This document shows positions 43,836-60,691 of a stretch of 64,000 nt of DNA, one piece after another. The position numbers and the translations under genes are program-made. The stretch's first letter is position 1, and each line of letters opens with the position of its first letter. Origin of the DNA: Micromonospora sp. M71_S20 (lineage in GTDB: Bacteria > Actinomycetota > Actinomycetes > Mycobacteriales > Micromonosporaceae). The notes below the pieces were generated by a model that was not told the origin of the DNA, made no database searches, and saw only the letters and a program-made list of their open reading frames with translations. The DNA is taken from positions 852,395 through 916,394 of the forward strand of contig NZ_RCCV01000003.1 of the NCBI RefSeq assembly GCF_003664255.1. Direction: 5' to 3'.

Positions 43836-46800
43836 CAGTCGAGCTCCGTTTCCTCGGTGACCGTCTGGTCGGGTGTGGGGCTGACGCGGTGGCGGGCGGC
43901 GTCGGCCTGCTGGGTGAGGTGCGCGGTGACGGGTGCGGCGTGGGGTTGTGGGCGGGTGTCGTCGATGGCGCGGACCCGGGCGGTGGTGGCGGCGACGGCG
44001 TCGGCGAGGTTGGCGCGGCGGGTCGCGGCGCGGCGGGTTTGTTCGGCGGCGGCGGCGAGTCCGGCGTAGCGGGTGGGCAGGGCGTTGGTGTACCAGCGCT
44101 GCCAATCGCCGTGGCGGGCTTCGAGGTCGGTGACGCGTTCGCGGCGCTGGTCGATGCCGGCGCTGAGGGTGGCGAGTTTCGCGCTCAGGCTGGCGTGGTG
44201 GCCGGCTGCGGCGGCGGCCCGCTGGTGTGCTTCCTGCTGGGCGGCGAGCATCCGGGCGCGGGAGGGGCCGCGTTGCCACCAGCGGGGCTTCTGCTGCTGA
44301 GCGGTGGCGGCGCGTTGGCCGGCGGTGGTGATGGCGGCGAGGAGCAGGGTGAGGTCGTGGTGGCGGTGCTCGGCGTCGGTGAGGTCGAGGTGCGCGTCAC
44401 GGAGTTGGTCGGCGACGTAGGTCGGCGCGGTGGCGTCGATGGTCTGCTGCGCGGTGATGAGTTGCGCGAGTTCAGCGTTGTCGGTGGTGGTGAGGTGTCC
44501 GGCGAGGGTCGCGGCGCCGAGCGCGACGCGGGCGCGGTGCCAGGCGTTCCACCGCGAGATGTCACTGGTGGGGGGTTCGGCCCCGATGGGGTGGTCGCTG
44601 GTGAGCTGGTAGCGGTCTCGGTAGGTGACCACGATCTCGGCTCGGGCGAGCCACTGGTCGCGGCCCGCCTCATCCTGCGGTACGGCCCCGAGCGCGCGGG
44701 CCCAGGCCGGTTGGTGCTCGGCGGCGAGGTCGGCCAGGGCGCTGACGCGGCGGTCGCAGATGGCGGCGACTTGCCGTAGGGCGTCTCCGATGTCGCCGGT
44801 GAGGTCGGCGGGCATGCGGTCGGTGTAGGACGCGGCGAGCGCCGCGGTGGTGGCGATGGCAGGGTCGGCGGTGGCGCGAGCCATCAGGCGGTCGATGCGC
44901 CAGGACAGCACCGCGGCGATGTCGTCGGCGGAGCCGAGTTCCCGGGGCCGAATCGCGCGGCGCAGCACGTCGGCGGGATTAAGGCCGGCTTCTCGCAGGG
45001 TGGTGAGTCGGGCGATGAGCGCGGGCAGCGCGAGGTCGCGGGCGAGCCGGTCAGCCGTAGTTTGTCCGCTGATGCGGGCGACGATGGCGAGGTATTCGGG
45101 GATGCGGGCGCGGGCGGACAGGTCGTCGTAGATGGGTGTCCAGGTGTGCAGGGCGTCGACGTCGGCCCAGAGTTGATGTTCGGTTTCGGTGGCGGAGCGG
45201 TCGGGGGTGGCGCGGCGCATGATGTCGGCCAGGACGGCGACGCGGGCAGTGGGTGGCTGGGGTGGGGTGCCTTCGCGGGGGTGGTCGTCGGTGACGACGT
45301 ACGCCTCGTTGAGGGTGTGGCCGCGGGTGAGCATGACGTACAGCCGGGCCAGGGTGGTGTTGTCGTCGACGAGCGCGCGGGCGGTGTGCACGGTCTGCCC
45401 TTGGACGGAGTCGACGGTGAGGGCGTAGGCGAGCTGCACGTGCCGCGCGACGTACGTGGCGGGCAGGACGGCGCTCGCGTCGGTGCGCAGGTTGGTGACG
45501 TGGAGTCGCCCGTCGCGGGTGACGGCTTGTACGCGCCACTGGTCGCGGTTGGCGACGAACGCGCCGCCGGCGCCGAGGCGACGGTCGTTGCGGCGGGTGA
45601 CGATGATGTCGCCGACACTGGCCTCGTTGCCGTCGCGCAGGCGTACGGCCGGGCCGGTGCGGACGAGGCCGGCGCGCAGGAGGATGTCGCGGGCGCGGCG
45701 GGCGATGTCGGCGGCTTCGTCGCCGGTTTCGACGAGCATCATGCTGGGGTGTCCGGTGGCCATGTCGGCGGCCCACCGGTCCAGCATCTGGCCGATGAGC
45801 AGGGTGCGGTGCCCGCCGTGGAGCCGGCCGCGGCGGTCGTATTCGTGCAGGACGGTGAGGTCGCCGGTGCGCAGCCGCAGCGACGCCGATCCTTCCCACG
45901 GCTGAGCGAATCGGTGGACTTGGGTGAGGTGGGTGGTGGCACCGAGGCTGTCGAGGTAGCGGAACAGTCCGCCGGGTCCGATGGCGGAGATTTGCGCGGG
46001 GTCACCGACGAGGATGAGCCGGCCGCCGACGGCGTCGAGTTGGGTGACGAGGCGGGCGAGGTCGTGGCTGGACACCTGCGACGCCTCGTCGATGATGACC
46101 CACTGCCCGGGTGCGAAGCGCCAGTCGGCGCGCGTGCCGGGCGGCGGCCGGTCGTGGGAGTGCAGCCAACGGGCGATGTTTTCGGTCCGCAGCATCGTGC
46201 CGTCGGGTTGGCGGGTGGCGTCGGCGAGCAGCTGCGCGGCGGACTGTCCCACGGTGAGACCGATTACCGGCACGCCGGCGTGCTGGGCGGCGGCGGCGAC
46301 GGCGCGCTGGAGGTAGGTCTTGCCGGTGCCGGCGGGCCCGACGACGCCGGTGACGCGCCGGTCATCGCCGACGAGGAATCGCAGCGCCGCGGCCTTCTCC
46401 GGCGACAACCGGAACGCGGCGGTGGCGGCGTCGATCGCCGCTCGCGGAGCGGGGCGAGCGCCGCGCCGGCCGGCGTAGGTGATGACTTCCTTTTCGGCGG
46501 CGAGGACGGCGTGGGTGGTCATCTGCAGGTCTCGGTGGCGGGTGTATTCGCTGTGCTGGTCGCTGCCGCGCAGCAGCGTCGGCCCCCACTGCACGAGGGC
46601 GGGCGGTGTCAGCACCCGCAGCCCGCCCAGGTTCTTGGCGATGGCCTCACCAGCGAGTGTCTGCACCTTCCGCCAGTCGGCGTGCGGCGAGTCACCGGGG
46701 GTGATGTCGAGGACCCGGCCGATGGCCAGTTCGAGGTGTTCGCGGCCGAACACGGCCCGCTCGCGGCCGAGGGTGTGCACGGCGCGGGCGAGCGCCAAGC

Positions 46801-48097
46801 GCACGTCGCGGCGTACTGCCGCGTCAACGACCCGGTCGCGTGCAGGACCGGTGATTCGCAGTTCGTCGGCGGCGGTGCGCAGCGCTTCCTCGTCCACACC
46901 GGCCGGGTGCAGCTGGCGGGCGTGGCGTAGGACGCGCCGCGCTGCGTCGGCGGTGTCGTCGTGCACCTCACCGGTGAGAACGCGGCGTACCTGAGCGGGG
47001 GTGTCGAGCCCAGCTGTGCGGTCCTCGGCTTGCCATCGCTGCACGGCCTGGTCGGTGGACTCCGCGCCCTTGGCCGGGCGGCGGGTCCGCAGGGTCGCGT
47101 CCTGGGCGCGTCGGCGCCACTGCGCCGCCGCCGAACGCGCCGGTGGTCCGGTGCGGTCGACACGGCGGTCCATCTCCTCGGTGATGGCGGCGCGCCGCTT
47201 GCTGTAGTGACGCAACGACGCCTCGCTGATGCCGACGATCTCGCGGATCCCGGAGTCCGTGCGGGCGGCGAAGGTGACGCCGCGGCGCGCGTGTAGTTCG
47301 AGTTCCACGGCGCGTTCGTAGGCGACGCGGGCGCCGACGGTCGCGCGGTAGAAGGCACGCCCGTCCAACGCCAACCACTGTGGATTGCCGTTCCCGTCGA
47401 CTGTCTTGACCTTCGCGGAGACGACGATGTGTGAGTGCAGCTGCGGGTCACGCTCGCGGCTCATCCGGTGGTCGAAGACCAGCGCGGCCAGCCCTTGGGT
47501 GTCGAGTTGGCGGACGCCACCCGCGCCGGTCCGGGTGAAGGCCCCGTGCCGCTGAAGGTGATCGAGCAGCGCGCGCACGCCAGCGTGGTGAGCGGCCATG
47601 ACATCCTGCTTGACGGTGTCGTCGCCAAAGGCCCACAACAGCGACACGGACTTCACGGGATGGGCCGTGACGTCGTATGCGGACACGGCCCGCCGCTCGG
47701 GGGCGTTCATGATGTCGTGCCACACCTTGTCGCGCTGTTCCACCGTGGCGTCGTCGGGCAGGTGCGCTAGTGCGCGTCGTACCGCTTCGTCGCGGTATTC
47801 GTTGGTCATCGGCGCGTAGATGCGCCATTTCTGGCCGAGCTGGAAGCCCGTCGTGGGATGCCGTCCCTGACCGATCAGATTGCGCATCTGCTTCTCGAAG
47901 ACCCAGCCGCGCACGCCGAGCACAGCGGCGCCATTGCCCGCCCACCAACCGGGGCTTTCACCCCGCGCGGCGTGGTTGATGTAGTAGGGCGTCGGGCCCC
48001 CGTGACCGACAGGGCGCAGGTCATGGCGACCGGCGGCGACCTGCTCCATGACATAGCGGTAACCGTCGCCGGGCGAGATGCGCGTGACGGTCAACAT
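43835..48097 (-). CDS. TrwC/TraA-type relaxase-helicase (MOBF)
   Basis: 1420 residues. The N-terminal relaxase domain starts MLTVTRISPGDGYRYV with candidate nucleophile tyrosines, and the metal-binding HxH appears in RDPQLHSHIVVSAKV near residue 219. From residue about 560 a RecD-like helicase follows: Walker A GVVGPAGTGKTYLQ near 588, Walker B WVIIDEASQV near 665 and RLILVGDPAQISAIGPGG. The last 300 residues are coiled coil. It nicks oriT and unwinds the transferred strand. ATG 48097 is favoured over a TTG 21 bases upstream. DUF3800 is coupled downstream. Confidence 0.95.
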   Translation of the reverse strand: MLTVTRISPGDGYRYVMEQVAAGRHDLRPVGHGGPTPYYINHAARGESPGWWAGNGAAVLGVRGWVFEKQMRNLIGQGRHPTTGFQLGQKWRIYAPMTNEYRDEAVRRALAHLPDDATVEQRDKVWHDIMNAPERRAVSAYDVTAHPVKSVSLLWAFGDDTVKQDVMAAHHAGVRALLDHLQRHGAFTRTGAGGVRQLDTQGLAALVFDHRMSRERDPQLHSHIVVSAKVKTVDGNGNPQWLALDGRAFYRATVGARVAYERAVELELHARRGVTFAARTDSGIREIVGISEASLRHYSKRRAAITEEMDRRVDRTGPPARSAAAQWRRRAQDATLRTRRPAKGAESTDQAVQRWQAEDRTAGLDTPAQVRRVLTGEVHDDTADAARRVLRHARQLHPAGVDEEALRTAADELRITGPARDRVVDAAVRRDVRLALARAVHTLGRERAVFGREHLELAIGRVLDITPGDSPHADWRKVQTLAGEAIAKNLGGLRVLTPPALVQWGPTLLRGSDQHSEYTRHRDLQMTTHAVLAAEKEVITYAGRRGARPAPRAAIDAATAAFRLSPEKAAALRFLVGDDRRVTGVVGPAGTGKTYLQRAVAAAAQHAGVPVIGLTVGQSAAQLLADATRQPDGTMLRTENIARWLHSHDRPPPGTRADWRFAPGQWVIIDEASQVSSHDLARLVTQLDAVGGRLILVGDPAQISAIGPGGLFRYLDSLGATTHLTQVHRFAQPWEGSASLRLRTGDLTVLHEYDRRGRLHGGHRTLLIGQMLDRWAADMATGHPSMMLVETGDEAADIARRARDILLRAGLVRTGPAVRLRDGNEASVGDIIVTRRNDRRLGAGGAFVANRDQWRVQAVTRDGRLHVTNLRTDASAVLPATYVARHVQLAYALTVDSVQGQTVHTARALVDDNTTLARLYVMLTRGHTLNEAYVVTDDHPREGTPPQPPTARVAVLADIMRRATPDRSATETEHQLWADVDALHTWTPIYDDLSARARIPEYLAIVARISGQTTADRLARDLALPALIARLTTLREAGLNPADVLRRAIRPRELGSADDIAAVLSWRIDRLMARATADPAIATTAALAASYTDRMPADLTGDIGDALRQVAAICDRRVSALADLAAEHQPAWARALGAVPQDEAGRDQWLARAEIVVTYRDRYQLTSDHPIGAEPPTSDISRWNAWHRARVALGAATLAGHLTTTDNAELAQLITAQQTIDATAPTYVADQLRDAHLDLTDAEHRHHDLTLLLAAITTAGQRAATAQQQKPRWWQRGPSRARMLAAQQEAHQRAAAAAGHHASLSAKLATLSAGIDQRRERVTDLEARHGDWQRWYTNALPTRYAGLAAAAEQTRRAATRRANLADAVAATTARVRAIDDTRPQPHAAPVTAHLTQQADAARHRVSPTPDQTVTEETELD

Positions 48098-48118
48098 GCC
48101 TCGACCGTAGAAGATCAA

Positions 48119-51114: not shown

Positions 51115-51181
51115 GCGGGCTCCTCGTGCTGGGGTTAGTGAGGGGCGGCGTCGCCGTGCCGCTGTGGTGCGGGGTGGGGTG

Positions 51182-51224
51182 GGCGGCCCGGGTCGGGGAG
51201 GGGGTGGCGCTGACCCGGGCCGCC
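51182..51224. terminator. 13-pair hairpin terminator after the GGDEF gene
   Basis: GGCGGCCCGGGTC (51182-51194) pairs perfectly with GACCCGGGCCGCC (51212-51224) around a 17-base loop. It lies 8 bases after the GGDEF stop. Confidence 0.85.
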
Positions 51225-51231
51225 GGTGGGC

Positions 51232-51870
51232 CTACCGGTAGCGGCGGCGGTGGTTGCCGGTGCGGGGAGCGATGGTGAGGCCGGGGCGGTATTCCTGGAC
51301 GCTGCCGCCGCGTTCTTTGGCGACGCACATTGCAATGTCGGCGTGGTGAAGGAGTTCAAAGGCGGTGCGGTGGCTGTTGTTGGCGACGGCGAGTCCGACG
51401 CTGGCGTGGCAGCCGAAGGTCTGCCACTGGATCATGATCATTCGGTGGTTGAGGGCGTCGGCGACAGCGTGGGCGTAGGCGCGGCTGAGATCGTCGTCGC
51501 CGTCGACAACGACGGCGAATTCGTCGCCGCCCATGCGGCCGGCGAATGCACGGGGCATCCGAAGTTCGGTGAGGACGTGCGCTACCTCTCGCAGGACTGC
51601 GTCTCCGGTGGCGTGGCCGTGCTCGTCGTTGATGTCCTTGAAGCGGTTGAGGTCGAGCATGATCACGGAGACGGGCCGCTTGCGGTCGCTGAGTAGGCCG
51701 TTGAGGTGAGCGACCAGGGCGCGACGGTTCGGCAGCCCGGTTAGCGCGTCGTGGTCGGCGTCGTGTCGGGCGGCGTTCAGGGCGGAGCGGAGGTGCCGGT
51801 TCTGTGCGATGAGCGCGAAGCAGCTCGCGCTGGTGCCGAGGAGGAGCGCGTAGGTGATGGGGTCGTGCAC
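51232..51870 (-). CDS. GGDEF-domain diguanylate cyclase-like protein
   Basis: 212 residues from a GTG with GGGAG 7 bases upstream. A single N-terminal helix (ITYALLLGTSASCFALIAQ) may anchor it. The GGDEF domain starts DALTGLPNRRALVAHL and carries RMGGDEFAVVVDG near residue 113, intact for c-di-GMP synthesis. The inhibitory RxxD site five residues upstream is not kept (RAFA), so product feedback may be lost. It may alter c-di-GMP in the host or recipient. Its leader is copy A of the repeated element. Confidence 0.9.
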   Translation of the reverse strand: MHDPITYALLLGTSASCFALIAQNRHLRSALNAARHDADHDALTGLPNRRALVAHLNGLLSDRKRPVSVIMLDLNRFKDINDEHGHATGDAVLREVAHVLTELRMPRAFAGRMGGDEFAVVVDGDDDLSRAYAHAVADALNHRMIMIQWQTFGCHASVGLAVANNSHRTAFELLHHADIAMCVAKERGGSVQEYRPGLTIAPRTGNHRRRYR

Positions 51871-51902
51871 TGAGGGCTCCCTGGGGTTGGGTTGGTGGGG
51901 GG

Positions 51903-51947
51903 TGTTCGGTTGGGGTTCGCCGTCCCTCCCGAACAACTATTACTATA
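51903..51947 (-). promoter_or_regulatory. leader element copy A (promoter plus hairpin)
   Basis: On the minus strand: -10-like TATAGT (from 51947 to 51942), then TGTTCGG pairing with CCGAACA (51929-51935 with 51903-51909) around a 19-base loop that contains GGGACGGCGAAC. The start codon of the GGDEF gene is about 70 bases from the -10. Copy B at 53074-53118 has the same layout with a compensatory change in the stem. Confidence 0.7.
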
Positions 51948-52028
51948 CACCATGGATGAATGTGGCTCTACCCGTGCCGGTGCCAGAGTGGCTGTTATTT
52001 TTCGATCTTGAGCGGTGTTTCTTGTGCA

Positions 52029-52067
52029 AGGGCCCGGCGGCGTCTCCTCGGGATGCCGCCGGGCCCT
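52029..52067. terminator. 13-pair hairpin terminator
   Basis: AGGGCCCGGCGGC (52029-52041) pairs with GCCGCCGGGCCCT (52055-52067). It lies between the leftward gene ending at 52089 and leader A, so it stops upstream transcription before the GGDEF promoter. Confidence 0.88.
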
Positions 52068-52088
52068 CGCCCTAATAGGCGGCTAGAG

Positions 52089-52589
52089 CTAGCGGCGGAT
52101 CGGTCGGATGCGGAGGATGTCTCCGAGGGCGATTCGTGCGGCGGGCTGGCGGGTCTGCGGATCCAGGAAAGGGGTGTAGTCCGTCGTCCACACGAGGTAC
52201 CAGGTGTGGGCGGCGTGTCCGGGGCGGGCGTTGCGTGGGTCGCCGGAGGCTTCCCCGTTGGTCTGCTGCTCGCTTCGGTATCTGGTCATCGTGCCGGCGA
52301 GCATCGGGCAGGCGGTGGCGCTGTAGTGGGCACACTCGGGGTGCATGGGCGGTTCGGGAGCGATCAGGCGGGGTAGGTCGACGTCGCGCATGGCGAACAC
52401 GAAGGGCCGGAACGTCGGCTCGCCGCAGATCTGGCACCGGTGGTCGCGCAGTGATGCGCCCAACCGTTGCGCGTCGATCGCGCCGAATCGATAGCGCCCG
52501 TCGGGCATGTGGGCGGTGATCCACGGTACGACCAGTCCGGCGAGCGTGGGGCGGTGTCTCAGGGCGACGAGAATGTCGATTTTAGTCAT
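52089..52589 (-). CDS. hypothetical ICE protein with zinc-finger-like Cys/His
   Basis: 166 residues from an ATG with GAGGA upstream. Two Cys lie in RCQICGEPTF and further Cys/His in HPECAHYSATACP, giving a plausible zinc-binding pair of knuckles (residues about 55-95). The C-terminal region TWYLVWTTDYTPFLDP and RIALGDILRIRPIRR is beta-rich. I do not know the family. It lies 25 bases after an intercistronic hairpin following the leftward gene upstream. Confidence 0.6.
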   Translation of the reverse strand: MTKIDILVALRHRPTLAGLVVPWITAHMPDGRYRFGAIDAQRLGASLRDHRCQICGEPTFRPFVFAMRDVDLPRLIAPEPPMHPECAHYSATACPMLAGTMTRYRSEQQTNGEASGDPRNARPGHAAHTWYLVWTTDYTPFLDPQTRQPAARIALGDILRIRPIRR

Positions 52590-52614
52590 GGTGATTCCTC
52601 GCGCGTTGGTTGCC

Positions 52615-52640
52615 GGTGCCGGCCCTTCCGGGCCGGCACC
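52615..52640. terminator. 11-pair intercistronic hairpin
   Basis: GGTGCCGGCCC (52615-52625) pairs perfectly with GGGCCGGCACC (52630-52640) around a 4-base loop, between two leftward genes. It is either a partial terminator or an mRNA stabiliser. Confidence 0.82.
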
Positions 52641-52665
52641 GATCGAGGGCTGCGGCGGTCGTGCC

Positions 52666-53043
52666 CTACAGGGCGAGGCTGGCGCGGAGGTTCGGCCGCA
52701 TCTCGTGCACCGGCACCAGGGCGCGCGTCGTGGTGCCGTCAATGGTGACGCGGAAGAGGTAGCGCGCCGGGACTCGGCTGCCTTCTCGGTCGCGGTCCGC
52801 CTCAAGGTCGATTCGCAGCGTGTCGGGGATGTGGGCGTAGGGCCGGACGGCCTCGATGACCTCGTCCGGGTCCGTGACCCGCTCCATTGCGCCCAGCCAG
52901 ACGGGCAGGGCGTCGGGGCTCGTCTCGTCGGTCTCGCCGTGGTTCAGAACAACGGCGAAGTACGACGTCAGCGGACGGTCCCAGCCCACGCTGACCTTGT
53001 GGTCGATTCGGTGGGGAAGGGGGGTGAGGTTGTGACGACTCAT
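52666..53043 (-). CDS. hypothetical ICE protein, DUF-like
   Basis: 125 residues. The ATG at 53043 sits about 70 bases downstream of the -10 of leader copy B and has AGAAGAGG upstream. It has a beta-strand opening (HKVSVGWDRPLTSYFAVVLNHG) and a later ARYLFRVTIDGTTTRALVPV, suggesting a compact mixed alpha/beta fold. No named family recognised. A longer frame upstream merely reads through the leader element. Confidence 0.6.
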   Translation of the reverse strand: MSRHNLTPLPHRIDHKVSVGWDRPLTSYFAVVLNHGETDETSPDALPVWLGAMERVTDPDEVIEAVRPYAHIPDTLRIDLEADRDREGSRVPARYLFRVTIDGTTTRALVPVHEMRPNLRASLAL

Positions 53044-53073
53044 GACACCTCTTCTGGTTGGGTCTTGTGGGCG

Positions 53074-53118
53074 TGTCCGGCGGGAGTTCGCCGTTCCCTC
53101 CGGACAACTATTACTATA
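53074..53118 (-). promoter_or_regulatory. leader element copy B
   Basis: On the minus strand: -10-like TATAGT (53118-53113), followed by TGTCCGG/CCGGACA arms (53100-53106 with 53074-53080) around a 19-base loop holding GGAACGGCGAAC. The stem differs from copy A by one base pair (T-A in A, C-G in B), a compensatory change, while the promoter part AACTATTACTATACACCAT read on the plus strand is identical. Confidence 0.72.
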
Positions 53119-53298
53119 CACCATCGAGGGCTGTGTTTCTACCCTTCCCGGTCCTGGGGTGACCTGGGATCTTCATGATCGTGAAGGGTGGCACCTGGCG
53201 GTTGCGCTGCGAGCGTGGACCGGTGCGGAGCTTGCTCGCCCCCCCACTTCTTTCGGCGGTGGGGGGCGAGCTTGCTCGTCCGTGGCGCGCGCAGTGGA

Positions 53299-53380
53299 GG
53301 TCAAGTTCGGCCGCGGGGTTTCGAGCAAAAGATCATGCGGGGTGTGCATGATGTTTTGTGAGCCGCGGCCGAACTTGACC
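53299..53380. repeat. 82-base imperfect hairpin
   Basis: The outer 18 bases match perfectly (53299-53316 with 53363-53380) and inner arms AAAA, ATCATGC also pair after a small bulge, leaving a loop of about 7 bases. Its size exceeds an ordinary terminator. Possible roles: single-strand origin, recombinase site, ssDNA promoter, or small RNA gene. Confidence 0.65.
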
Positions 53381-53465
53381 GGAGCGAGCACGTCGCTAGC
53401 CTGTTGCGGCCCCCACCGTTGAAGGGAGGGGTTTTGGCAGTGCGGCCGGAGGCCGCTTCCGGTTT

Positions 53466-53487
53466 GCCTGGCCCGTCAGGGCCGGGC
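53466..53487. terminator. hairpin terminator after the tandem HTH gene
   Basis: GCCTGGCCC (53466-53474) pairs with GGGCCGGGC (53479-53487) with one G-U pair and a 4-base loop. It lies about 90 bases after the leftward stop at 53580. Confidence 0.6.
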
Positions 53488-53579
53488 GTCTTGACGGCGA
53501 GCATCCGGCGCAGGTCTGCGAGGGCGGGGTTTGTCGTTGTCCTGGGGTCGGCGCTTGTTGAGCGGCGGGCGGTTCGGTG

Positions 53580-54326
53580 TCAGTTGGTGCGCTGGTCGAG
53601 GATGGTCCACAGGGTGGCGCGTCGCCATTTGAGGCGGCGGCGTCCGGCGGGGCCGGTGTTCTGTTCGTCGGCGCGGTCGAGCACGGGAGTGGGCAGGGCG
53701 TTGGGGTGGTTGTAGCCGAGGATCCGGGCTGCCTCGGCTTTGCCGACGAGTTCGTCGGGGTCGCCGGTGCGGTCGGGGTGTCCGTGTGGGCTGCCGATCG
53801 GCCGTCCTGTGCTTTCGGCGCCGCCTCTGCCGACACGGTCTTCGGCGATCTTCCAGACGGTTTCGCGCTTCCAACGCCGGCGTGTGCGGCCCCCCGCGCT
53901 TGCAGAACTTTCGTCGGGGCACTCCTTCAGGCGCAGCCATACGGGGTTGTTGCCGTGTAGGGCGCTGCGGTTGGTGTAACCGAGGATGCGGGCTGCGGTA
54001 GCGACGTCAACGAGTTCGTTGGGGTCTCCGGTGCGATCGATGCTGGCTTGGGTGCTGCGTCTGATTCTGTTGCTGGGTGGCTCGTATCGTGCGATGTCTT
54101 CGCGGTTCCAGGTGCGGCCGTCGGCGGTGCGTTCGGGAAACCCGGTGGTGCTGCGCTCGCGGTAGAGCCGGTGCAGGTGGCTGACGGAGATTCCGAGCAG
54201 CGCTGCTGCTTCGACGTGGTTGACGACGTCGGGGTCGGGGGAGCGCGTGGGCATGCAGTGATGATGCCGCATGCCGGGTTGAGCGGGGTGGCTTGCCGGT
54301 TGGTACAGGGTGGGAGTGCTGCTCAT
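53580..54326 (-). CDS. protein with three MerR/excisionase-like helix-turn-helix units
   Basis: 248 residues if ATG 54326 is used; ATG 54254 and GTG 54374 are alternatives. Three successive units each read as a short HTH_17-type motif: NHVEAAALLGISVSHLHRLY, ELVDVATAARILGYTNRSAL and ELVGKAEAARILGYNHPNAL, each followed by a charged wing. The second and third copies are clear duplications. Single copies of this fold act as excisionases or replication/partition regulators; three in one chain could bind a repeated site. Role inferred. Confidence 0.72.
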   Translation of the reverse strand: MSSTPTLYQPASHPAQPGMRHHHCMPTRSPDPDVVNHVEAAALLGISVSHLHRLYRERSTTGFPERTADGRTWNREDIARYEPPSNRIRRSTQASIDRTGDPNELVDVATAARILGYTNRSALHGNNPVWLRLKECPDESSASAGGRTRRRWKRETVWKIAEDRVGRGGAESTGRPIGSPHGHPDRTGDPDELVGKAEAARILGYNHPNALPTPVLDRADEQNTGPAGRRRLKWRRATLWTILDQRTN

Positions 54327-54422
54327 GGTCTGCTTCGCCGTCGCCGCTGGGGGTTGTCGTACGATGGGTGCCACGTGTTCGGCGTTGGGTTCGTTGGGGC
54401 CTGTGGGCGTCGGACGCCAGGC

Positions 54423-54457
54423 GGCCGGGGGGAGTTCGCCAAACTAACCCCCCGGCC
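54423..54457. terminator. 10-pair hairpin after gene 54465
   Basis: GGCCGGGGGG (54423-54432) pairs with CCCCCCGGCC (54448-54457) around a 15-base loop. It lies 8 bases after the stop of the leftward gene, so it is a terminator. Its loop reads GGCGAAC on the minus strand, the same word as the leader family. Confidence 0.75.
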
Positions 54458-54464
54458 TCCGCCG

Positions 54465-54881
54465 TTAGGTCGTTTCACCTCTGCGGCATGGCGGTTGCTG
54501 CTGGGCAGGGGGCATGCAGCGTCGGGCGGCGCGTGCCAAGACTCCGTACTGCGTGTCGCCCCTGGCGACTACCTGTCCGGATGGGAGTCTACGGGCCACG
54601 TATTCGCGGCGTTGGGCGTCCCAGCCGCCGACGCACACGGCCGACGGCTCAGCGCGCATCTCCCATCGTTCGCCCTTGGCCGTCGTGATGTGGACGTGGT
54701 GCTCGCGGGTGAGCGTCCACCTGTCTCCGTGGGTGTCGAGGCGTAGGCCGTGTGGGTTGTTGTCGCGGAAGAGACGCCAGCGGCCGTCGCGATCGAGCAG
54801 CCGCGCGATGTCGTCGCGTGCGTCGAGTGGGCCGTGGGGTCGTGGTGCGCTGACCGCGTGGGGGTGTGGCGGCATCGACAT
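54465..54881 (-). CDS. hypothetical ICE protein
   Basis: 138 residues from an ATG with GGAG 6 bases upstream, about 67 bases from the -10 of leader copy C. Beta-rich repeats of WRLFRDNNPHGLRLDTHGDRW and HVHITTAKGERWEMRAEP suggest a small beta-sheet fold. Cys at residue about 98. Not a named family that I recognise. It is followed by a hairpin terminator. Confidence 0.58.
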   Translation of the reverse strand: MSMPPHPHAVSAPRPHGPLDARDDIARLLDRDGRWRLFRDNNPHGLRLDTHGDRWTLTREHHVHITTAKGERWEMRAEPSAVCVGGWDAQRREYVARRLPSGQVVARGDTQYGVLARAARRCMPPAQQQPPCRRGETT

Positions 54882-54907
54882 TGTGGCTCCGTGGGGTTGT
54901 TGGAGGG

Positions 54908-54953
54908 CGGTCGCTCGGAGGTTCGCCGTCCCCGAAGACCGGCTATTACTATA
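54908..54953 (-). promoter_or_regulatory. leader element copy C
   Basis: On the minus strand: TATAGT (54953-54948), then arms TCGG/CCGA and outer CGGTC/GACCG (54937-54941 with 54908-54912) closing a loop with GGGACGGCGAAC. The promoter words GGTGTATAGTAATAG are the same as in copies A and B, and distance to the start codon is again about 67 bases. Confidence 0.68.
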
Positions 54954-54966
54954 CACCTTGCTTGTT

Positions 54967-54996
54967 GGGCTTGCCATTCTGCGTCAGGGCAAGCCC
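54967..54996. terminator. 9-pair hairpin upstream of leader C
   Basis: GGGCTTGCC (54967-54975) pairs with GGCAAGCCC (54988-54996) around a 12-base loop, on the upstream side of the promoter. A second inverted repeat, GGGCGGGCCGG/CCGGCCCGCCC (55020-55030 with 55060-55070), follows. Both would insulate copy C from upstream leftward transcription. Confidence 0.65.
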
Positions 54997-55196
54997 GTGG
55001 TGTGTGCGCGGAGCTGGCAGGGCGGGCCGGCTGCGATCGGTGGGTTGCTCGGAGGCCGTCCGGCCCGCCCGGTGACCGCGGGAGCAACGGTCAGGTGCAC
55101 GACGACGCGAGGACAAAGAAAGCTGATGACCCGGGACAACCCTGCGCAACCGCGCGAGACGTGGGCGTCATTCGTCTGACCGGGTGTCGGTGATGG

Positions 55197-55642
55197 TTAT
55201 AGATGACCGTCGCCGGTGAGGCGTTGGCGCAGTTCTGATAGGGGGAGTCGGTGGCGTTGGCGGTGGCGTTGTTCGGTGAGGATGGCGACGTCGCCGAGTT
55301 TTTCGCGTAGTTGGGTTTCGGCTGCTTCGGCGGCGGTGTAGTGGTCGGGCAGGACGTGTAGTAGTCGTGCCCAGTGGTGTTTGCCGGCGCGGACGCATGC
55401 TCCTCCGCAGTTGTTGTGTGGTAGGCCGAGGTCGTAGAGCCGTGGTGGGCGTAGTCCGAGTTGCCGGGCCGAGTCCAGTAGTTCCTGCTTGGTGAGGTGC
55501 GGCGGGTCGAGTAGGGGGAAGGTTGGGCGGCGACGCGTTGGGCGGCGGCCCAGCTTCCGATGCCGCCGGAGTATTGGACGACGTGCAGGTGTTTATCGGG
55601 GTTGCTGAGTGTGGGGCGCGGGTTCGGGGCCGGTGTGGGCAT
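55197..55642 (-). pseudogene. PAPS-reductase/PP-loop family gene, internal deletion
   Basis: The gene starts well (HLHVVQYSGGIGSWAAAQRVAAQ, the PP-loop SGGxxS of phosphoadenosine-phosphosulfate-reductase-like proteins). Just after this the reading frame shifts, and the correct continuation is in another frame: FPLLDPPHLTKQELLDSARQ, LPHNNCGGACVRAGKHHWARL, ending LRQRLTGDGHL before a TAA at 55197. The central part of a 250-300 residue protein is missing and the frame is changed at the junction, so an internal deletion of several hundred bases is inferred. Such genes are common in ICE and phage leading regions and are linked with DNA modification. Confidence 0.82.
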
Positions 55643-55668
55643 GGGGTTCCGTTCGGATGCTTCTTTGC

Positions 55669-55715
55669 GGGCGGACGGTAGGGAGCCGTGCCGTGCCTAG
55701 CTGGGCGGACGGTAG
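55669..55715. repeat. GGGCGGACGGTAG direct repeat
   Basis: The same 13 bases occur at 55669-55681 and 55703-55715, 34 bases apart start to start, upstream of the PAPS-reductase relic on its promoter side. Possible operator half-sites or small iterons. Confidence 0.4.
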
Positions 55716-55907
55716 TGGGTGGGGAGGCGAGGGGGGCGCGTGAGCGCTCCTCGTCCGGAGCCGGGCGCTCGATGCGCCCTGTATCCGGCAGCGCGCGCGG
55801 TCGAGCGGTGCTGATTGACCGGTAGATGGTTGAGGACGGCGGTCGGTCGTTGGTGTTTCGTATCGCCCACCGGAGGGCTGGTGATCTTCGTTGGTGTAGC
55901 GGGGGTG

Positions 55908-55939
55908 CCGGTCGGGGGCCTGGTGTGGCCCCCGACCGG
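55908..55939. terminator. 13-pair hairpin after ParB gene
   Basis: CCGGTCGGGGGCC (55908-55920) pairs perfectly with GGCCCCCGACCGG (55927-55939) around a 6-base loop, 6 bases after the ParB stop. Confidence 0.9.
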
Positions 55940-55944
55940 TTGGA

Positions 55945-57630
55945 TCAGGCGGCGAGACGGCTTTCCGGCTCGGACCCGGCAGGTTCGTCGGTGTCGTCCG
56001 AGGGGCCGGGCGTCCCCTCGTCCGGCCGGGGCGCGATCTCGTTGTCGGCGGTGTCGGTGTCGAGCCCAGACAGCAGCTCGTCGGGCTCCGGGGCCGTGAC
56101 GACGGTGAGGTCGGCACGCTGCTTCGTGCGGTTGGCGACGGAGTCGATGATGAGCTGTTCGACCTTGCCGACTTGGAAGCCGTTGGAGACGCACCACTGC
56201 AACCACTTGGCGACCGCCGGGTCGGGTGCCCGCCAGGAAGACCGGGTAATGCCGCTTTCGTTGGCGGCGGCGATTGCCGTGAGCGACATGACCGAGTAAC
56301 GGCCGTCGCTGACACCTCGCGCGGGGACGCGCTTGGTGCCGGGTCGCTTGGTCTTGCCCGGTGACAGGAGTTCGTCGAGCATCTTCCGTCCGCCGTTGAC
56401 CCAGGTAGAGAGGATGTAGCCGGAGTCGGCCAGCATCTCCGCGATGAGCTTCGCGGTGCCCTTCGGCGGGGTCTTGGCGGTCAGGAACGTCGCCAGCCAT
56501 TCACGACGGACCGTGTTGGCGACTTCCATGGCCTTGTTGTTCTCGATGACCAGTCGCCGTTCGGCCTTCTCCTGTTCGGTCATGGGACCGCTGCGGGTGG
56601 AGGTCATGGCGTAGGCGGGCAGGGCGTGGCCGTGCGCGCGCCAGTCGGTGCAGTAGGTGGTTTCCGTCAGTCGGTCGTCGTAGGTGAGGAACAGTCGGAC
56701 GGCGTGGCCGGGGCAGCCGGTGTGCCCTTCGGGGTCGACGTGGTTGCCCTCGGCGTCGCGTAGGTCGCTGACCTCCTTGATCTTGGGGTCGTTGTACCGG
56801 GGGTGCTCGGACAGCAGCGTGATTCCGGCAGCGACAAGTTCGGCGCGGCGGGCGGCTTCTGCGGCGATGGCGGCCCGGGTGCCGCGATATTGCTCGACGG
56901 CACGGGCGAAGGCGAAGGGCCCATTCTCGGCCTCGTCCAGCAGTGCTTCGACGCATTCGGGTTCGTCGGCGAATTCTGCGAGCGCGGCGACCTGGGTGAG
57001 GTCGAGCCCGAGGGTGTGCGTGCGTTCGGTGGTGCGCTTGTCCAGGGTGGCGAGTTGCCGCCCGGCTTTGATCTGCTCCGGCTGGTAGCCGGTGTGTCGG
57101 GCGATGTCGTCGTCGGTCATGCCGTCGAGGGCGAGTTGCTGGATGCCTCGGGCCTGCTGGGCGGCGGTGAGGTCGGTGCGGTGGACCTGCCGGAGCATGC
57201 TGATGAGCTGTTCGCGGTTGGCGGCTAGGTCGTCACGAACGATGACCTGGATCCACTTCTGCTCTGCCTCGACGGCGGACCAGTAGCGCTGCTCGCCGTC
57301 GATGATGAGGTACGGACCGTCGTCGTCGCCCAGCCCGAGCGGCGTGACGATCAGCGGCGAGAGCAGGCCGCGAACACCGTCCTGGTGCAGGTTCTGCACG
57401 ATGCCGGGGAGGGCCTGCGCGTCGTCGCGGGCGTTACCCGGGTTGGGCTTGATGTTGGCGACCTCGACCATGCAGTGCCGGCCGGGCAGCTCGGGCATGT
57501 CCTGGTCGTCGCCGGTACCCTGCGAGCGGGCGTCCGTGTCGGTCGAAGCTGCCTCGGAGGACTCGGGAAGATCGTCGGCTGCCGGGGCCTCGCTGTCGAT
57601 CTGCGGTGCGGGTGCGGTTTGCGTGAGCAC
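55945..57630 (-). CDS. ParB/RepB/Spo0J-family protein
   Basis: 561 residues from a GTG with GGGAG upstream. The ParB-like N-terminal domain contains VEVANIKPNPGNARDD and the nucleotide loop YLIIDGEQRYWSAVE (residues about 50-125), and the helix-turn-helix region is LTAAQQARGIQQLALDG and TDDDIARHTGYQPEQIKAGRQLA. The large C-terminal half, with a Cys/His segment (GHTGCPGHAVRLFLTYDD), is unlike chromosomal ParB. ICE-borne ParB proteins may stabilise the element or act as DNA clamps in the leading region. Leader copy E lies just upstream. Confidence 0.9.
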   Translation of the reverse strand: MLTQTAPAPQIDSEAPAADDLPESSEAASTDTDARSQGTGDDQDMPELPGRHCMVEVANIKPNPGNARDDAQALPGIVQNLHQDGVRGLLSPLIVTPLGLGDDDGPYLIIDGEQRYWSAVEAEQKWIQVIVRDDLAANREQLISMLRQVHRTDLTAAQQARGIQQLALDGMTDDDIARHTGYQPEQIKAGRQLATLDKRTTERTHTLGLDLTQVAALAEFADEPECVEALLDEAENGPFAFARAVEQYRGTRAAIAAEAARRAELVAAGITLLSEHPRYNDPKIKEVSDLRDAEGNHVDPEGHTGCPGHAVRLFLTYDDRLTETTYCTDWRAHGHALPAYAMTSTRSGPMTEQEKAERRLVIENNKAMEVANTVRREWLATFLTAKTPPKGTAKLIAEMLADSGYILSTWVNGGRKMLDELLSPGKTKRPGTKRVPARGVSDGRYSVMSLTAIAAANESGITRSSWRAPDPAVAKWLQWCVSNGFQVGKVEQLIIDSVANRTKQRADLTVVTAPEPDELLSGLDTDTADNEIAPRPDEGTPGPSDDTDEPAGSEPESRLAA

Positions 57631-57678
57631 GGTCCGTGCTCCCTTCGGGTTGTGGGTGTGTTGGTTGGCCGGGGCGCG

Positions 57679-57697
57679 TCTGGGGTTGCCGTCCAGA
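57679..57697 (-). promoter_or_regulatory. leader element copy E (hairpin, degenerate)
   Basis: TCTGG and CCAGA pair around a loop that reads GACGGCAACC on the minus strand, about 55 bases before the ParB start. The loop and position match copies A-D, but the TATAGT box is absent and no clear -10 is seen at the expected place; a TTGACA-like -35 is at 57771-57776. Weaker than the others. Confidence 0.5.
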
Positions 57698-57717
57698 GCA
57701 CTCCGGTGGTTCGTGGG

Positions 57718-57738
57718 ACCGCTGCCGAAGGCAGCGGT
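57718..57738. terminator. 9-pair hairpin terminator
   Basis: ACCGCTGCC (57718-57726) pairs with GGCAGCGGT (57730-57738) around a 3-base loop. It lies 57 bases after the leftward stop at 57795. Confidence 0.78.
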
Positions 57739-57794
57739 GGTGGTGGGCTACGTGCGGGTCGCTGTGGAGTTGTCAAGGAACCGGGCTGGATCAG

Positions 57795-58331
57795 TCAGGC
57801 GGCTGTGGCGAGGGCGGTGAGGTGTGGGCGGTTGGGTGGTGACGGCATGGTGCAGTCGGTGCAGGTGCCGCCGTCCCAACGGTGTTTGCTGGCACCGTCG
57901 CCTGCCGGGCACGGCATGAGCTGTAGGTCGGCGAGGTGTGCGCGGTTCAGGCAGACGGGGCACAGGCCCCAGTTGGCGGTTGGTGCGCCGGAAATCGGGG
58001 TGTCGCAGTGGGTGCAGCAGCATCCGGCCTGCCGGAGGGCTTGACCGATGACGTCGGCTGCGGCGATCGCGCGGCGGGCATCGAGGGCGAGGCCCTTCCA
58101 CGCGGCGGTCTTTTGCACGCGCTGCCAGTCCTCGTCGGTCAGTGCGGGGCTGGGCAGGGTGGCGGGGTCGTCTGCCTGGGCGTGTAGGTACGCCTCGACC
58201 TCCGCGCGGCCGAACAGGGGGCCAGTCCACTGGAAGGTGCGGGCGAGTACGGATACGAGGTGTCGCGCGTCGGGCTCTGCGAGGTTTCGGGGCAGTGACA
58301 CGCCGTGAGGCAGCCCGATGAACATGGGCAT
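57795..58331 (-). CDS. hypothetical ICE protein with two zinc-ribbon-like motifs
   Basis: 178 residues from an ATG with GGAG upstream. The central region has CCCTHCDTPISG and CPVCLNRAHLADL, and the end has CPAGDGASKHRWDGGTCTDC. The two CxxC pairs with His nearby look like zinc-binding knuckles, so a nucleic-acid-related role is plausible. Family not recognised. A terminator separates it from the DUF932 gene upstream. Confidence 0.62.
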   Translation of the reverse strand: MPMFIGLPHGVSLPRNLAEPDARHLVSVLARTFQWTGPLFGRAEVEAYLHAQADDPATLPSPALTDEDWQRVQKTAAWKGLALDARRAIAAADVIGQALRQAGCCCTHCDTPISGAPTANWGLCPVCLNRAHLADLQLMPCPAGDGASKHRWDGGTCTDCTMPSPPNRPHLTALATAA

Positions 58332-58435
58332 GGGTGCTCCATCGGTGGGAGAAGATCGGCACGGGATGGCACGCGACAACCGAGCGTGCAAAGCGGGAAC
58401 ACCGGCGGAAGTTGCGGGTGCGGGCCGCTGGGGGT

Positions 58436-58460
58436 CGGGTGCCGCTGGCGGCGGCACCCG
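58436..58460. terminator. 10-pair hairpin after DUF932
   Basis: CGGGTGCCGC (58436-58445) pairs with GCGGCACCCG (58451-58460) around a 5-base loop, 8 bases after the DUF932 stop. Confidence 0.85.
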
Positions 58461-58468
58461 CCCAACGG

Positions 58469-59608
58469 TCAGAGCGTGGCAGCGATCTCCATGGCCCGGA
58501 TGCCGACGCTTTCCATGTCGAACGCGGCATCGGGGTCGCTGAGGGTCTGCGCGGCGCTGGTGACCGCGTGCAGCATGCCCCCGGCGGTTCGGTCCCCGCC
58601 GTCGATGAAGTGGTTGAGGATCAGGCGCTGCTGGTCCTCGGTGAAGCGAAGCCGCTGCCCGACGACGCGGATGGTGTGGTCGGGGTCCGCGATGCGCCGG
58701 CCCGCCTTCTCCTCGATCTCCTCGATCTTGCGGCGAACGTAGCGGACATCAAGGAAGCGGCGCACGGCGTCGCGGGCCTGCTTACCGATAAGGCTGAGAT
58801 TCGCCTCGTGGGTGTCGTTGCTCCACCGGATCGTTCCCTCGTCCATCTTCGCGCCCAGGTGAACCGCACGCAGGGCATCTTTGGTGACGGTCACGCCGTT
58901 GTCGCAGACCTGAACGACGATACGCGGGGTGATGGTCATCGCGCCGGCACCGGTCTCGCTGTTGGTGAAGACGAGCCCAGCGAAGACAGTCGGGTTGTCC
59001 GCCCCGGTCGCTCCGGTGAAAGGGCTGCGGTAGTTACGCAGCAGAGTCGGGGCGAGCGACTTGATCGCCTCGGAGTGGACCCGCACGACCATGCGCCGCT
59101 CGCTCAGGTCGCACGCGAGGTTCACCCGCAGCCCGGACTCACGGATGCCGGTCAGCGCGGACATCAACACGTCCAGGTGGTCGATGATCTTGTAGCCGTC
59201 GCTGAGGAAGGCGCGCAGGATGCCGCCGCCGTTGCCGTCGGACAGGCAGCGGGCGAGGTATCGCTTGCCGTGTTGGAGATCGAGCCAGCCGTTGACGTTG
59301 GTGTCGTAGAGGTGCAGGGCCTGGGCGCGGGTCTTGCGGAGGTAGGCGGTGGGGATGCCCAGCTTCTCGCCGAGTCCGGCGTCGCCGAGTTCGGTGGGCA
59401 GGTACAGCCCATCGGCGGAGGTGACCCCGGTGTCGGTGAGGACCGGCTCTGCCCCCGTGATGCGCAGGTGGCCGGCTTCGGCTCGCAGCATCCCGGTGCC
59501 GGCCACGATGTCGAGCTTGTGGCCCTGCTGCTGATTGAGGATGGCGGTCAGGTCCGCCAGGGAGGCGTGTCGGGCCGACAGGGGGATGGTGCTGATCGTG
59601 TCGCTCAC
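58469..59608 (-). CDS. DUF932 family protein
   Basis: 379 residues. The pattern RAFLSDGYKIIDHLDVLMSAL and the following RVVRVHSEAI-like region are typical of DUF932/phage-plasmid-like proteins; the C-terminal third contains a helical AADPDHTIRVVGQRLRF stretch. DUF932 genes are frequent in conjugative leading regions and plasmids, with no firmly known function. GTG 59608 is chosen because AAGGAAG lies 5 bases upstream and the distance to the -10 of leader D matches copies A-C; ATG 59644 is in frame but has no ribosome site. Confidence 0.85.
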   Translation of the reverse strand: MSDTISTIPLSARHASLADLTAILNQQQGHKLDIVAGTGMLRAEAGHLRITGAEPVLTDTGVTSADGLYLPTELGDAGLGEKLGIPTAYLRKTRAQALHLYDTNVNGWLDLQHGKRYLARCLSDGNGGGILRAFLSDGYKIIDHLDVLMSALTGIRESGLRVNLACDLSERRMVVRVHSEAIKSLAPTLLRNYRSPFTGATGADNPTVFAGLVFTNSETGAGAMTITPRIVVQVCDNGVTVTKDALRAVHLGAKMDEGTIRWSNDTHEANLSLIGKQARDAVRRFLDVRYVRRKIEEIEEKAGRRIADPDHTIRVVGQRLRFTEDQQRLILNHFIDGGDRTAGGMLHAVTSAAQTLSDPDAAFDMESVGIRAMEIAATL

Positions 59609-59644
59609 GGCACTTCCTTCGGTGAGGTTGGAATTGTTGGTCAT

Positions 59645-59680
59645 TCGGTCGGGGGTTGCCGCCCCTCCCTCATGTATATA
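59645..59680 (-). promoter_or_regulatory. leader element copy D
   Basis: On the minus strand: TATATAC (59680-59674), then GGGAGGGGCGGCAACCCCC (core GGCAACC), in which GGGG/CCCC close the loop GCGGCAA. The start codon at 59608 is about 67 bases downstream of the box. Promoter words differ from copies A-C, and the long outer stem is not clear. Confidence 0.55.
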
Positions 59681-60181
59681 AGGATACATGGGTTCTGTCT
59701 CCATGTCCACTTGAATCGCGCTCTCTTTGAAAGTTATGAGCGGGCTTTATGTCATTCGCCGGCTTGGTTTGGGGGCGATGGCTGATAGGAGAGTGCGGGG
59801 CGTATCTCGGTGGGGAGTGAGGGCTTTGGGGCGTGACATGGCACCAAGTCGGCTTTCGTGTTACGGCCCGAATCGGCTCGGTCGCTGCCACCGTGGCGCA
59901 GTTGACCTCACCTCAACCGCATCGGTGCAGTTAGGAGCAACGCCGGACCGGACACGACGAGCGCCGCCTCCTCCGCCGGTGATGGTTCTTGACCTCACCC
60001 CGACAAGATATCCGTCGGCGCAGCGGTTCACTGGGTCGATCACGACGGACGCCGTCGCCATGCTTGAAGCGCGAAAAGCCAACTAAAGGCGGTGCTGGGC
60101 GGCGAGACGCTGATCGAGTCGGAGGCTGTTGGGTGTAGGTCGGTTCAGTGAGTTAAGGTAGGCGCCGGCGTGCTGTCCAAC
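59681..60181. other. 500-base region without a supported gene
   Basis: A forward frame from 59727 to 60086 (119 codons) exists but lacks a ribosome site and recognisable motif, and its composition changes halfway, so it is not annotated as a gene. The region has lower coding character than elsewhere and would contain the DUF932 promoter at its left edge. Confidence 0.4.
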
Positions 60182-60691
60182 TTACTCGGTCGGCCTATCT
60201 GGGTCCTGGACACTCCCGCCCCTGACGTTGATCCACTCCTGTATCCGACGGCGCTTCCAGTAGCGAGTCATGCCGCCCGTAGGTGCCGGTTCTTCGAGAT
60301 CGAACAAGGGCAGGTAGCCGTCTTCGTGGCGTTTCCATGCCGCCTTGCTGCGGCCGGCGTAAAAGTCCCATGCGCCTTGACTGATATCGAGGATCTTCCG
60401 AAACTCGGCGGCAGGCAGCAGTTCCTCAGGATCGCCAACAAGATTGACCTGATGAACGCGTGCTCTGGCGGACTCGACGATCTGTGGCAGCAGGATGTCC
60501 CGGACGCGCTTCAACTCGTCGATGGGAAACCAGGACTTCTTGTCTTGCTTGACTGGCGCGGGCCAACCGGAGCCCTGCTCGCGTTGCTTGGGTGAGGTCT
60601 TGAGTCGGACCGTCGCCTCGGAACGACATGTGAACTCAGCCGCCCCGGCGATGTCGGTGTGCGGCTGACCACCGATGTTCCGGATCTCCAT
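60182..60691 (-). CDS. helix-turn-helix DNA-binding protein, excisionase-like
   Basis: 169 residues starting MEIRNIGGQPHTDI. It has two poised helix-turn-helix-like units: AAEFTCRSEATVRLKTSP and AAEFRKILDISQGAWDFYAGR, each followed by a basic wing (RYWKRRRIQEWI). The layout resembles the tandem HTH protein at 53580 and could bind a repeated site. Excision or replication control is a guess. It is the last leftward gene before the IS relic. Confidence 0.68.
   Translation of the reverse strand: MEIRNIGGQPHTDIAGAAEFTCRSEATVRLKTSPKQREQGSGWPAPVKQDKKSWFPIDELKRVRDILLPQIVESARARVHQVNLVGDPEELLPAAEFRKILDISQGAWDFYAGRSKAAWKRHEDGYLPLFDLEEPAPTGGMTRYWKRRRIQEWINVRGGSVQDPDRPTE

Follow-up and report, generated by a model that had tools for sequence, protein, structure and literature searches.

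A repeated promoter-and-hairpin leader before candidate establishment genes of a probable conjugative element in Micromonospora

Why should several unrelated genes, lying close to a DNA-transfer machinery, begin with the same kind of leader? The question is raised by a stretch of 64,000 nucleotides (nt) from Micromonospora sp. M71_S20 (assembly GCF_003664255.1, contig NZ_RCCV01000003.1, positions 852,395 to 916,394), hereafter the window, which forms the end of its contig in a 7.8-Mb genome. Judging from its gene content, the window probably carries an integrative conjugative element (ICE) of the type IV secretion system (T4SS) type with a MobF relaxase. To our knowledge, little work has addressed how the conjugative elements found in Gram-positive bacteria of high GC content activate their earliest genes once they enter a new host. 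The initial annotation described five copies, A to E, of a promoter-plus-hairpin leader between 51 and 60 kb, and proposed that they act either as a cis-regulatory RNA or as a hairpin promoter on single-stranded DNA (ssDNA) entering a recipient. The presence of one kind of hairpin before several unrelated genes near the transfer machinery suggests recognition of every copy by a single factor, which would place the genes under joint control. We consider it somewhat more probable than an even chance that A to E are 5'-leader RNA elements which place candidate establishment genes in one post-transcriptional regulon, read by an element-specific factor.

Within the window, copies A, B and C each consist of a promoter and a hairpin, D has a hairpin behind another promoter, and E is a hairpin before a parB-like gene; all five are on the minus strand. 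The box TATAGTAATAG occurs exactly three times, at 51937-51947, 53108-53118 and 54943-54953, all on the minus strand. Allowing up to 2 mismatches added no site in the window (shuffled sequence predicts 0.14), and the three are the only exact copies in the whole genome. The corresponding promoters read TAGAGC-17-TATAGT in A (51942..51970, with a weak -35 matching at 3/6 positions), TAGAAA-17-TATAGT in B (53113..53141) and ATGGCA-18-TATAGT in C (54948..54977). Each is followed by a hairpin with the loop ACGGCGAAC: in A at 51903..51935 (outer arms TGTTCGG/CCGAACA, inner arms GGG/CCC), in B at 53074..53106 (TGTCCGG/CCGGACA, inner GGGA/TCCC) and in C at 54908..54941, where the stem is longer than in A and B. 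The arms of A and B are therefore as first annotated. The accompanying claim that these two copies share the same 19-base loop holds for its length and fails for its sequence, since 13 of the 19 bases are identical (counted by eye) and each inter-arm stretch contains an inner stem closing the 9-nt loop. The three GGNACGGCGAAC loops were likewise found where they had been placed. This word by itself is not rarer than chance (61 matches at up to 2 mismatches versus 54.5 expected), so the evidence lies in the combination of box and loop.

Copy D (59651..59669, loop around GCGGCAA) had been assigned a different box and indeed has its own sigma70-like promoter, TGGACA-17-TATCCT (59681..59709). An operator-like dyad, CATGTAT-N6-ATACATG (59671..59690, minus strand), lies over the D -10 and recurs in related D leaders, with mismatches in some. 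The hairpin of copy E (loop ACGGCAA) is present as annotated and extends further than claimed, over 57669..57706; in agreement with the missing box, no promoter-like site reached the scan threshold in 57600-58340. A sigma70 scan of 51850-59760 returned three sites, which are the promoters of B, C and D, versus 0.5 expected, with copy A scoring just below threshold (8/12). Folding energies of single copies were unremarkable (z -1.4 to +0.4 for 12 leaders folded), and support for the hairpin is consequently comparative.

We next turned to related elements, since the initial annotation had named a lack of further covarying copies elsewhere as grounds for refutation. Such copies were found, which speaks for a real element: three genera of the family contribute eight elements to the leader class, with 32 box-type copies between them. 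Five elements belong to the genus of the window (G000 with 3 copies, G278 with 5, G266 with 3, G247 with 2 and G282 with 3), one to a second genus (G006, 5 copies) and two to a third (G170 with 5 and G182 with 6). The two clusters of G182, about 50 kb apart on one contig, were counted as one element, and copies with a decayed box, such as one near 7815 of locus L041, were left out of the count. The parB hairpin (E type) occurs in nine elements; in a stretch read from G123, D and E alone were found. These numbers come from several searches. Of 300 family genomes, 3 contained the leader according to a pattern search and 25 encoded the DUF932-like protein that lies behind D; stretches of up to 20 kb around the latter were read. 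A covariance model (R1) built from 20 copies matched 8 of 300 family genomes, of which 7 were accepted; it added element G182 and did not recover G170. Run on 397 genomes of the order, those of the family among them, R1 matched 4, with none accepted outside the family. Two matches were rejected: one within the family (G143, E=0.003, model positions 15-54), judged a terminator-like hairpin, and one outside it (G479, E=0.005, positions 14-54), weak, partial and judged to be chance. The system is thus family-level as far as sampled; since the family and order searches with R1 used stricter filters that lose weak matches, and since R1 missed G170, absence elsewhere is unproven. In viral contigs the pattern TATAGTAATRR-N8-20-GGCGAACC matched 10 stretches, all in loci of 36-42% GC and judged to be chance (a single one of them was matched by R1 at E<=1, with 11.2 bits), and two further viral-contig scans gave no match. 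A related-locus search of genome contigs with poor patterns returned one archaeal relative among the matches listed.

Comparison of the copies revealed compensatory changes in the stems. In an alignment (A3) of 20 of the 26 copies then known, omitting five of the G170 type and one duplicate and predating the G182 copies, the named 12-pair stem reached a covariation score of 0.257 versus 0.137 ± 0.019 after shuffling (0/500 as high) and 0.08-0.12 when one arm was slid; 72.5% of cells paired versus 62.1% in shuffled alignments. Left to itself, RNAalifold retained only the four inner pairs, of which three show two-sided changes; some copies lack the outer stem. We then exchanged 3' arms between copies in 5,000 permutations; here, and for the -35, promoter and complementary-strand counts below, we used 30 of the 32 box-type copies, omitting one duplicate each from loci L011 and L043. 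The cognate arms of E (n=9) averaged -23.3 kcal/mol versus -15.4 when exchanged, with 0/5,000 permutations as stable. Box-type hairpins behaved alike, with 0/5,000 permutations as stable in the window's genus (n=15) and 1/5,000 in the other lineages (n=15). Around one loop type, the stems of E vary strongly from lineage to lineage; in G247 and G282 they form an unbroken 14-bp stem of very different sequence with the same loop. Compensatory changes thus exceed both shuffled and slid controls, identifying a covarying structured element, though not for D alone. A near-fixed loop on a free, matched stem points to selection on a folded single strand, and the covariation, together with an E hairpin that lacks a promoter-like site, backs the cis-regulatory RNA first proposed. 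The same pattern bears on the idea that one regulator binds box and loop region as a DNA duplex. The box is conserved past the -10 hexamer, and a protein with three helix-turn-helix units is encoded in all eight box-type elements, as such an operator would lead one to expect; a duplex reader, however, would keep the letters of the stem, which change in matched pairs around a constant loop. We regard this explanation as very unlikely for the whole leader, although a double-stranded operator could exist for the box alone, alongside an RNA element.

Box and loop are nearly uniform within an element and differ between elements, including for the same gene and inside one genus. Among the 16 copies of the window's genus, the box reads TATAGTAATAG in 7, TATAGTAATGA in 5 and other variants in 4; elsewhere it is TATATTAGTAG in 4/5 copies of G006, TATATTTAGAT in 4/5 of G170 and TATCTTAGTAG in 3/6 of G182. 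Loops follow the same division, with ACGGCGAAC in 14/16 copies of the window's genus, GAGGCAAGC in 3/5 of G006, TGGGCAAAG in 4/5 of G170 and AAGGCAAGC in 6/6 of G182. Leaders of different genes within one element are 0.861 identical (55 pairs), compared to 0.715 for the same gene (25 pairs) and 0.705 for different genes (316) across lineages; these uniformity figures, and the distances given below, cover all 32 copies including duplicates, with gene names assigned in this analysis. The parB hairpin has its own element's loop in G006 and a variant of the element's loop elsewhere. G170 and G182 belong to one genus and differ in both box and loop, so that the code appears to belong to the element rather than to the host. 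We take this uniformity to reflect recognition by a factor that the element itself encodes. It could also arise if a strong housekeeping promoter and a generic 5' hairpin protect the mRNA from decay with host factors only, duplication or gene conversion keeping the copies alike. The sigma70-like promoters, the position of the hairpin near the predicted 5' end in A to D and the duplication evident in L011 and L043 are compatible with such an origin. Protection, on the other hand, needs no fixed loop, does not account for two elements of one genus that differ in box and loop, and sits poorly with an intergenic E away from any recognisable promoter; moreover, the flanks of leaders within one element are 0.585 and 0.612 identical against 0.861 for the leaders themselves. 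We therefore hold mRNA protection to be unlikely, yet worth serious consideration.

Whether the hairpin acts in RNA or in ssDNA was addressed from promoter quality, geometry and folding. Among the 30 box-type copies the -35 consensus is matched at 5/6 positions in 13 and at 4/6 in 7, and is poor in 10; at random positions 0.8% reach 5/6 and 7.9% reach 4/6. At threshold, a promoter-like site precedes 17/30 box-type copies, 4/6 D and 0/9 E. The A+T fraction just upstream (0.46-0.75 in box-type versus 0.21-0.39 in E) separates the classes better than the score does. Geometry is close to constant: the distance from box start to GGC is 27.0 ± 0.8 nt and from GGC to the start codon 48.3 ± 2.7 nt in the 32 box-type copies (50-61 in E, 9/9), giving about 75 bp from box to start codon, and each copy precedes an open reading frame (ORF) in the sense direction. 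The hairpin promoter on ssDNA suggested at first, of the Frpo type, found little in its favour. Leading-region-like gene content and the repetition of promoter plus hairpin agree with it, but the hairpin lies downstream of the -10, and in complementary-strand folds the -10 is mostly unpaired, with a mean pairing of 0.37 versus 0.63 for random hexamers (at positions not matched in composition). The -10 and -35 are both paired in 5/30 such folds, a count made without an Frpo positive control. The box is unpaired in A, B and C, and E has no promoter-like site at all above threshold; an Frpo-like promoter is in our view extremely improbable. A different role in the entering strand, as a priming or protein-loading site of the ssi kind and not in mRNA, would suit a MobF relaxase, whose family transfers ssDNA. 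The leader hairpins also form with DNA parameters, E does without a promoter-like site and the G.T/A.C count is even. Such a site would need neither a near-constant distance to the start codon nor a sense-oriented ORF behind every copy, and we judge it quite improbable. The same two features, with E lying behind another gene and lacking a promoter-like site, lead us to favour RNA over ssDNA.

The genes behind the leaders are diverse. Behind A lies a GGDEF (diguanylate cyclase-type) protein of 212 amino acids (51232..51870; PF00990 E=3.1e-35 with the longer frame); behind B and C are proteins of 125 (52666..53043) and 138 amino acids (54465..54881) with no family match. D precedes a DUF932-like protein of 379 amino acids (58469..59608; Pfam DUF932 E=0.043, below cut-off) and E a ParB-like protein of 561 (55945..57630; PF02195 E=4e-05, just below cut-off, and TIGR00180 E=5.2e-11, below cut-off), all on the minus strand. 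Their content resembles that of plasmid leading regions. In related elements the box-type leader precedes the small proteins B and C, a protein of about 505 amino acids, the DUF932-like gene in G006 and G170 and, in G182, a gene resembling DprA as judged by eye. The GGDEF-type gene carries a box-type leader in 8/8 elements (Pfam having been run on the window's protein only), which by itself hints at cyclic di-GMP (c-di-GMP) signalling in the life cycle of the element. A small-molecule riboswitch, sensing for example c-di-GMP, would fit this association. Rfam, however, placed only a tRNA at gathering level in the whole window and no riboswitch; in 51000-60500 it gave two sub-threshold matches, none of them at any leader up to E=1. 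The hairpin is also small, and element-specific loops would be unexpected for one ligand, leaving a riboswitch a remote prospect.

Taken together, we propose that transcription from a housekeeping-type promoter in A to D yields a leader of about 65 nt (its start site being predicted) whose first bases would fold into the hairpin, and that the E hairpin, between genes, would be reached by read-through. An element-specific factor would recognise the conserved loop (ACGGCGAAC or CGGCAA in the window, GGCAAG or GGCAAA elsewhere) on a stem of free sequence, some 50-60 nt upstream of the start codon, and its binding would set translation or stability of the mRNA. In this way the loop-bearing genes near the relaxase would share one control, probably acting while the element becomes established in a new host. 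If this is true, the loop-coded leader defines an establishment regulon by sequence alone, which could be listed in other elements, and the element-specific loops offer natural matched and mismatched pairs for finding the loop binder.

Several observations weigh against this leader-RNA proposal. No known RNA-binding fold was found among the candidate readers, and the helix-turn-helix protein looks like a binder of double-stranded DNA. A gap of 17-21 nt separates the hairpins of A to C from the ribosome-binding site, and direct occlusion of that site is therefore not evident. In the strand test, G.T and A.C cells numbered 15 each, and base-pair counts thus leave RNA versus complementary ssDNA undecided. 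E is promoterless by threshold only, its best relaxed sites scoring 4-8/12 compared to 6-10 for box-type copies. Two of five covariation measures were weaker, with 40/500 shuffles as high for two-sided pair changes and 13/500 for further pair types, and both shuffling and arm exchange leave relatedness in. D stems, which hardly vary, give no support (891/5,000 permutations as stable). Loops are not entirely uniform either: in the window's genus D and E have CGGCAA and A to C have CGGCGAA, and the E loop of G182 (AGGCAAC) differs from its box-type loop, so that one reader serving all copies would need to tolerate variation. Furthermore, two identical and two near-identical leaders in L011 and L043 mean that duplication may add to element-wise uniformity. 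Finally, same-gene leaders of different elements in the window's genus are 0.828 identical, others 0.800, a possible trace of descent by gene.

What might read the loop? The three-helix-turn-helix-unit protein (53580..54254, minus strand), weakly similar to MerR, BldC and RacA, is a candidate regulator at the DNA level. It is encoded in 7/7 other box-type elements and in 0/17 leader-less loci, within the stretches read. Its confident model (mean pLDDT, the predicted local distance difference test score, 88.8) shows the three units and gave weak matches to CarH, TraN, RacA, BldC and SoxR (best E 0.044), a fold that fits a promoter better than RNA. A cysteine-rich protein of 178 amino acids encoded between D and E (57795..58331, minus strand) is a second candidate reader, present in seven other box-type elements and G123 and in 0/17 leader-less loci, again within the stretches read; its model was unusable (mean pLDDT 53.8). 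Other small genes show patterns similar to those of these two proteins.

A third candidate is an RNA encoded by the element, whose very stable hairpin would form kissing pairs with the leader loops; a single antisense loop would then control the whole establishment regulon, with loop and anti-loop co-evolving. In the window, hairpin F (54423..54457; in minus sense GGCCGGGGGG[TTAGTTTGGCGAACT]CCCCCCGGCC, loop invariant in five elements) begins 7 bases past the stop codon of gene C. Its 21-nt core is identical in five elements whose neighbouring protein is only 55-71% identical. On the plus strand it reads GTTCGCC, the complement of the leader loop GGCGAAC; the minus strand itself is leader-like (GGCGAAC). 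Among 335 genomes of the class, hairpin F was found in its own genome only. In G006, G170 and G182 another hairpin, R, lies directly behind the gene for the 178-amino-acid protein (z -4.5, -5.9 and -7.1), with loops CTTGCC, TTTGCC and CTTGCC facing leader loops GGCAAG, GGCAAA and GGCAAG respectively. These copies of R, in three elements of two genera, lie at about 5787 in L044, 4573 in L043 and 12200 in L093 (oriented). An R model matched 16 of 354 family genomes at E<=0.01, with G006, G170 and G182 strong (E<=2e-17); the 13 other matches (E 2e-5 to 0.009) were set aside solely because of their scores, before any reading of the loops. The model's best match among loci of the window's genus scored E=0.079. 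Viral contigs contained eight stretches with the R pattern, of which seven lack the full second arm (by eye). The eighth, L128 (IMGVR_UViG_2772190661_000001), is a sequence of 127.7 kb filed as viral that carries a G006-type R and box-type sequences, and for that reason looks like a conjugative element and not a virus. By chance, a complementary loop is expected for 8-14% of random 9-mers in a sense hairpin loop and for 14-36% on either strand (G006, G170, G182). R is one family, and its three cases are thus not independent. In the window's genus, F carries the complement solely on the antisense strand relative to the genes, and G278 contains a further two sense loops that matched. The occurrence of hairpins with complementary loops in every lineage is no more than suggestive of antisense RNA, and chance might account for it; we rate an antisense RNA as the reader as distinctly unlikely.

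The surroundings agree with an element that is mobile. For two of the window's proteins the closest named relatives come from Micromonospora. The integrase adjoins a tRNA-Leu, a TraG/VirD4 coupling protein and an M23 peptidase are encoded in the window, and a MobF (TrwC) relaxase-helicase lies at 43835..48118 (minus strand, by family match). All genes considered above that lie at 48-60 kb are on the minus strand and directed towards the relaxase. T4SS-type actinobacterial ICEs have been delimited by an integrase, a MobF relaxase, a T4 coupling protein and a VirB4/TraC-like ATPase (PMC3218068). The first three are present in the window; a VirB4-like candidate at 28030-29613 matched AAA_10 only, at E=0.05. 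No attachment (att) repeat of the tRNA-Leu region was found within the window using 14-mers, and neither the origin of transfer (oriT) nor a nic site was located there. With the relaxase, coupling protein, integrase and ParB- and DUF932-like genes, the label of ICE leading region given at first is plausible. The DUF932-like protein also has relatives on other mobile DNA: they are all below 60% identity and occur in plasmids (31 records, mostly actinobacterial, several annotated DUF932) and in phages (225 records, 204 named Mycobacterium). The leader-less DUF932-like loci L049-L061 (13) bear another strong conserved hairpin, AGAACATCTTGGCC..GGCCAGAGATCTTCT, possibly an analogous element. In 12/13 loci there is a single match, about 3.1-3.9 kb into the oriented sequence, and in L055 there are two; in most the hairpin is slightly upstream of the DUF932-like gene, and its arms recur elsewhere in some loci. 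A separate repeated intergenic stretch (..TTTCGAGNAAAAGATCATGCGGGGTGTGCATGATGTTTTG..) occurs once in the window, at about 53190-53410, and twice in G278 (L011, near 10360 and 13785, plus strand).

Hairpins with a fixed loop and a freer stem that are read in trans are familiar from mRNAs bound by phage coat proteins, where they usually overlap the start region. The leader hairpin, in contrast, lies about 50 nt upstream of the start and is common to several genes. Frpo/ssi elements resemble the leader as repeated elements in plasmid leading regions before early-expressed genes, and are described as a folded strand that itself contains the -35 and -10, paired within the hairpin (PMC11541004). In the leader the hairpin instead follows an ordinary promoter and is sometimes present where no promoter can be recognised, and the -35 and -10 are both paired in only 5/30 complementary-strand folds. 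Cluster K mycobacteriophages carry repeated elements that precede the start codons of numerous genes within a single mobile genome: SAS, a 13-bp asymmetric GGGATAGGAGCCC at the translation start, and ESAS, 17-bp inverted repeats of conserved sequence around a variable spacer with a consensus that differs between subclusters (PMC3203893). The leader reverses the ESAS design, having free stems around a fixed loop, and SAS itself is not enriched in the window (3 matches of GGGATAGGAGCCC at up to 2 mismatches versus 1.92 expected, none in 51-60 kb). The establishment gene regulatory sequences EGeRS1 and EGeRS2 of pLS20-family plasmids likewise recur, as conserved sequences, directly before a number of candidate establishment operons of one conjugative element, and their type varies by clade (PMC8708921). 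EGeRS1, next to the ribosome-binding site, is a region of 420-751 bp that contains several inverted repeats and has no strong sigma-A promoter, no constitutive promoter having been detected in the copy tested, and EGeRS2 contains a strong promoter under an element-encoded ribbon-helix-helix repressor (PMC8708921). The leader is unlike EGeRS1 in measuring about 75 bp from box to start, with one small hairpin and a sigma70-like promoter in most copies. As regards EGeRS2, what was observed here is promoter-like sites and a candidate regulator of the helix-turn-helix kind. No report of these leaders was found in the open-access literature searched. Overall, the comparison gives good support to a new leader class, which stands near EGeRS and SAS/ESAS in concept and differs from them in build.

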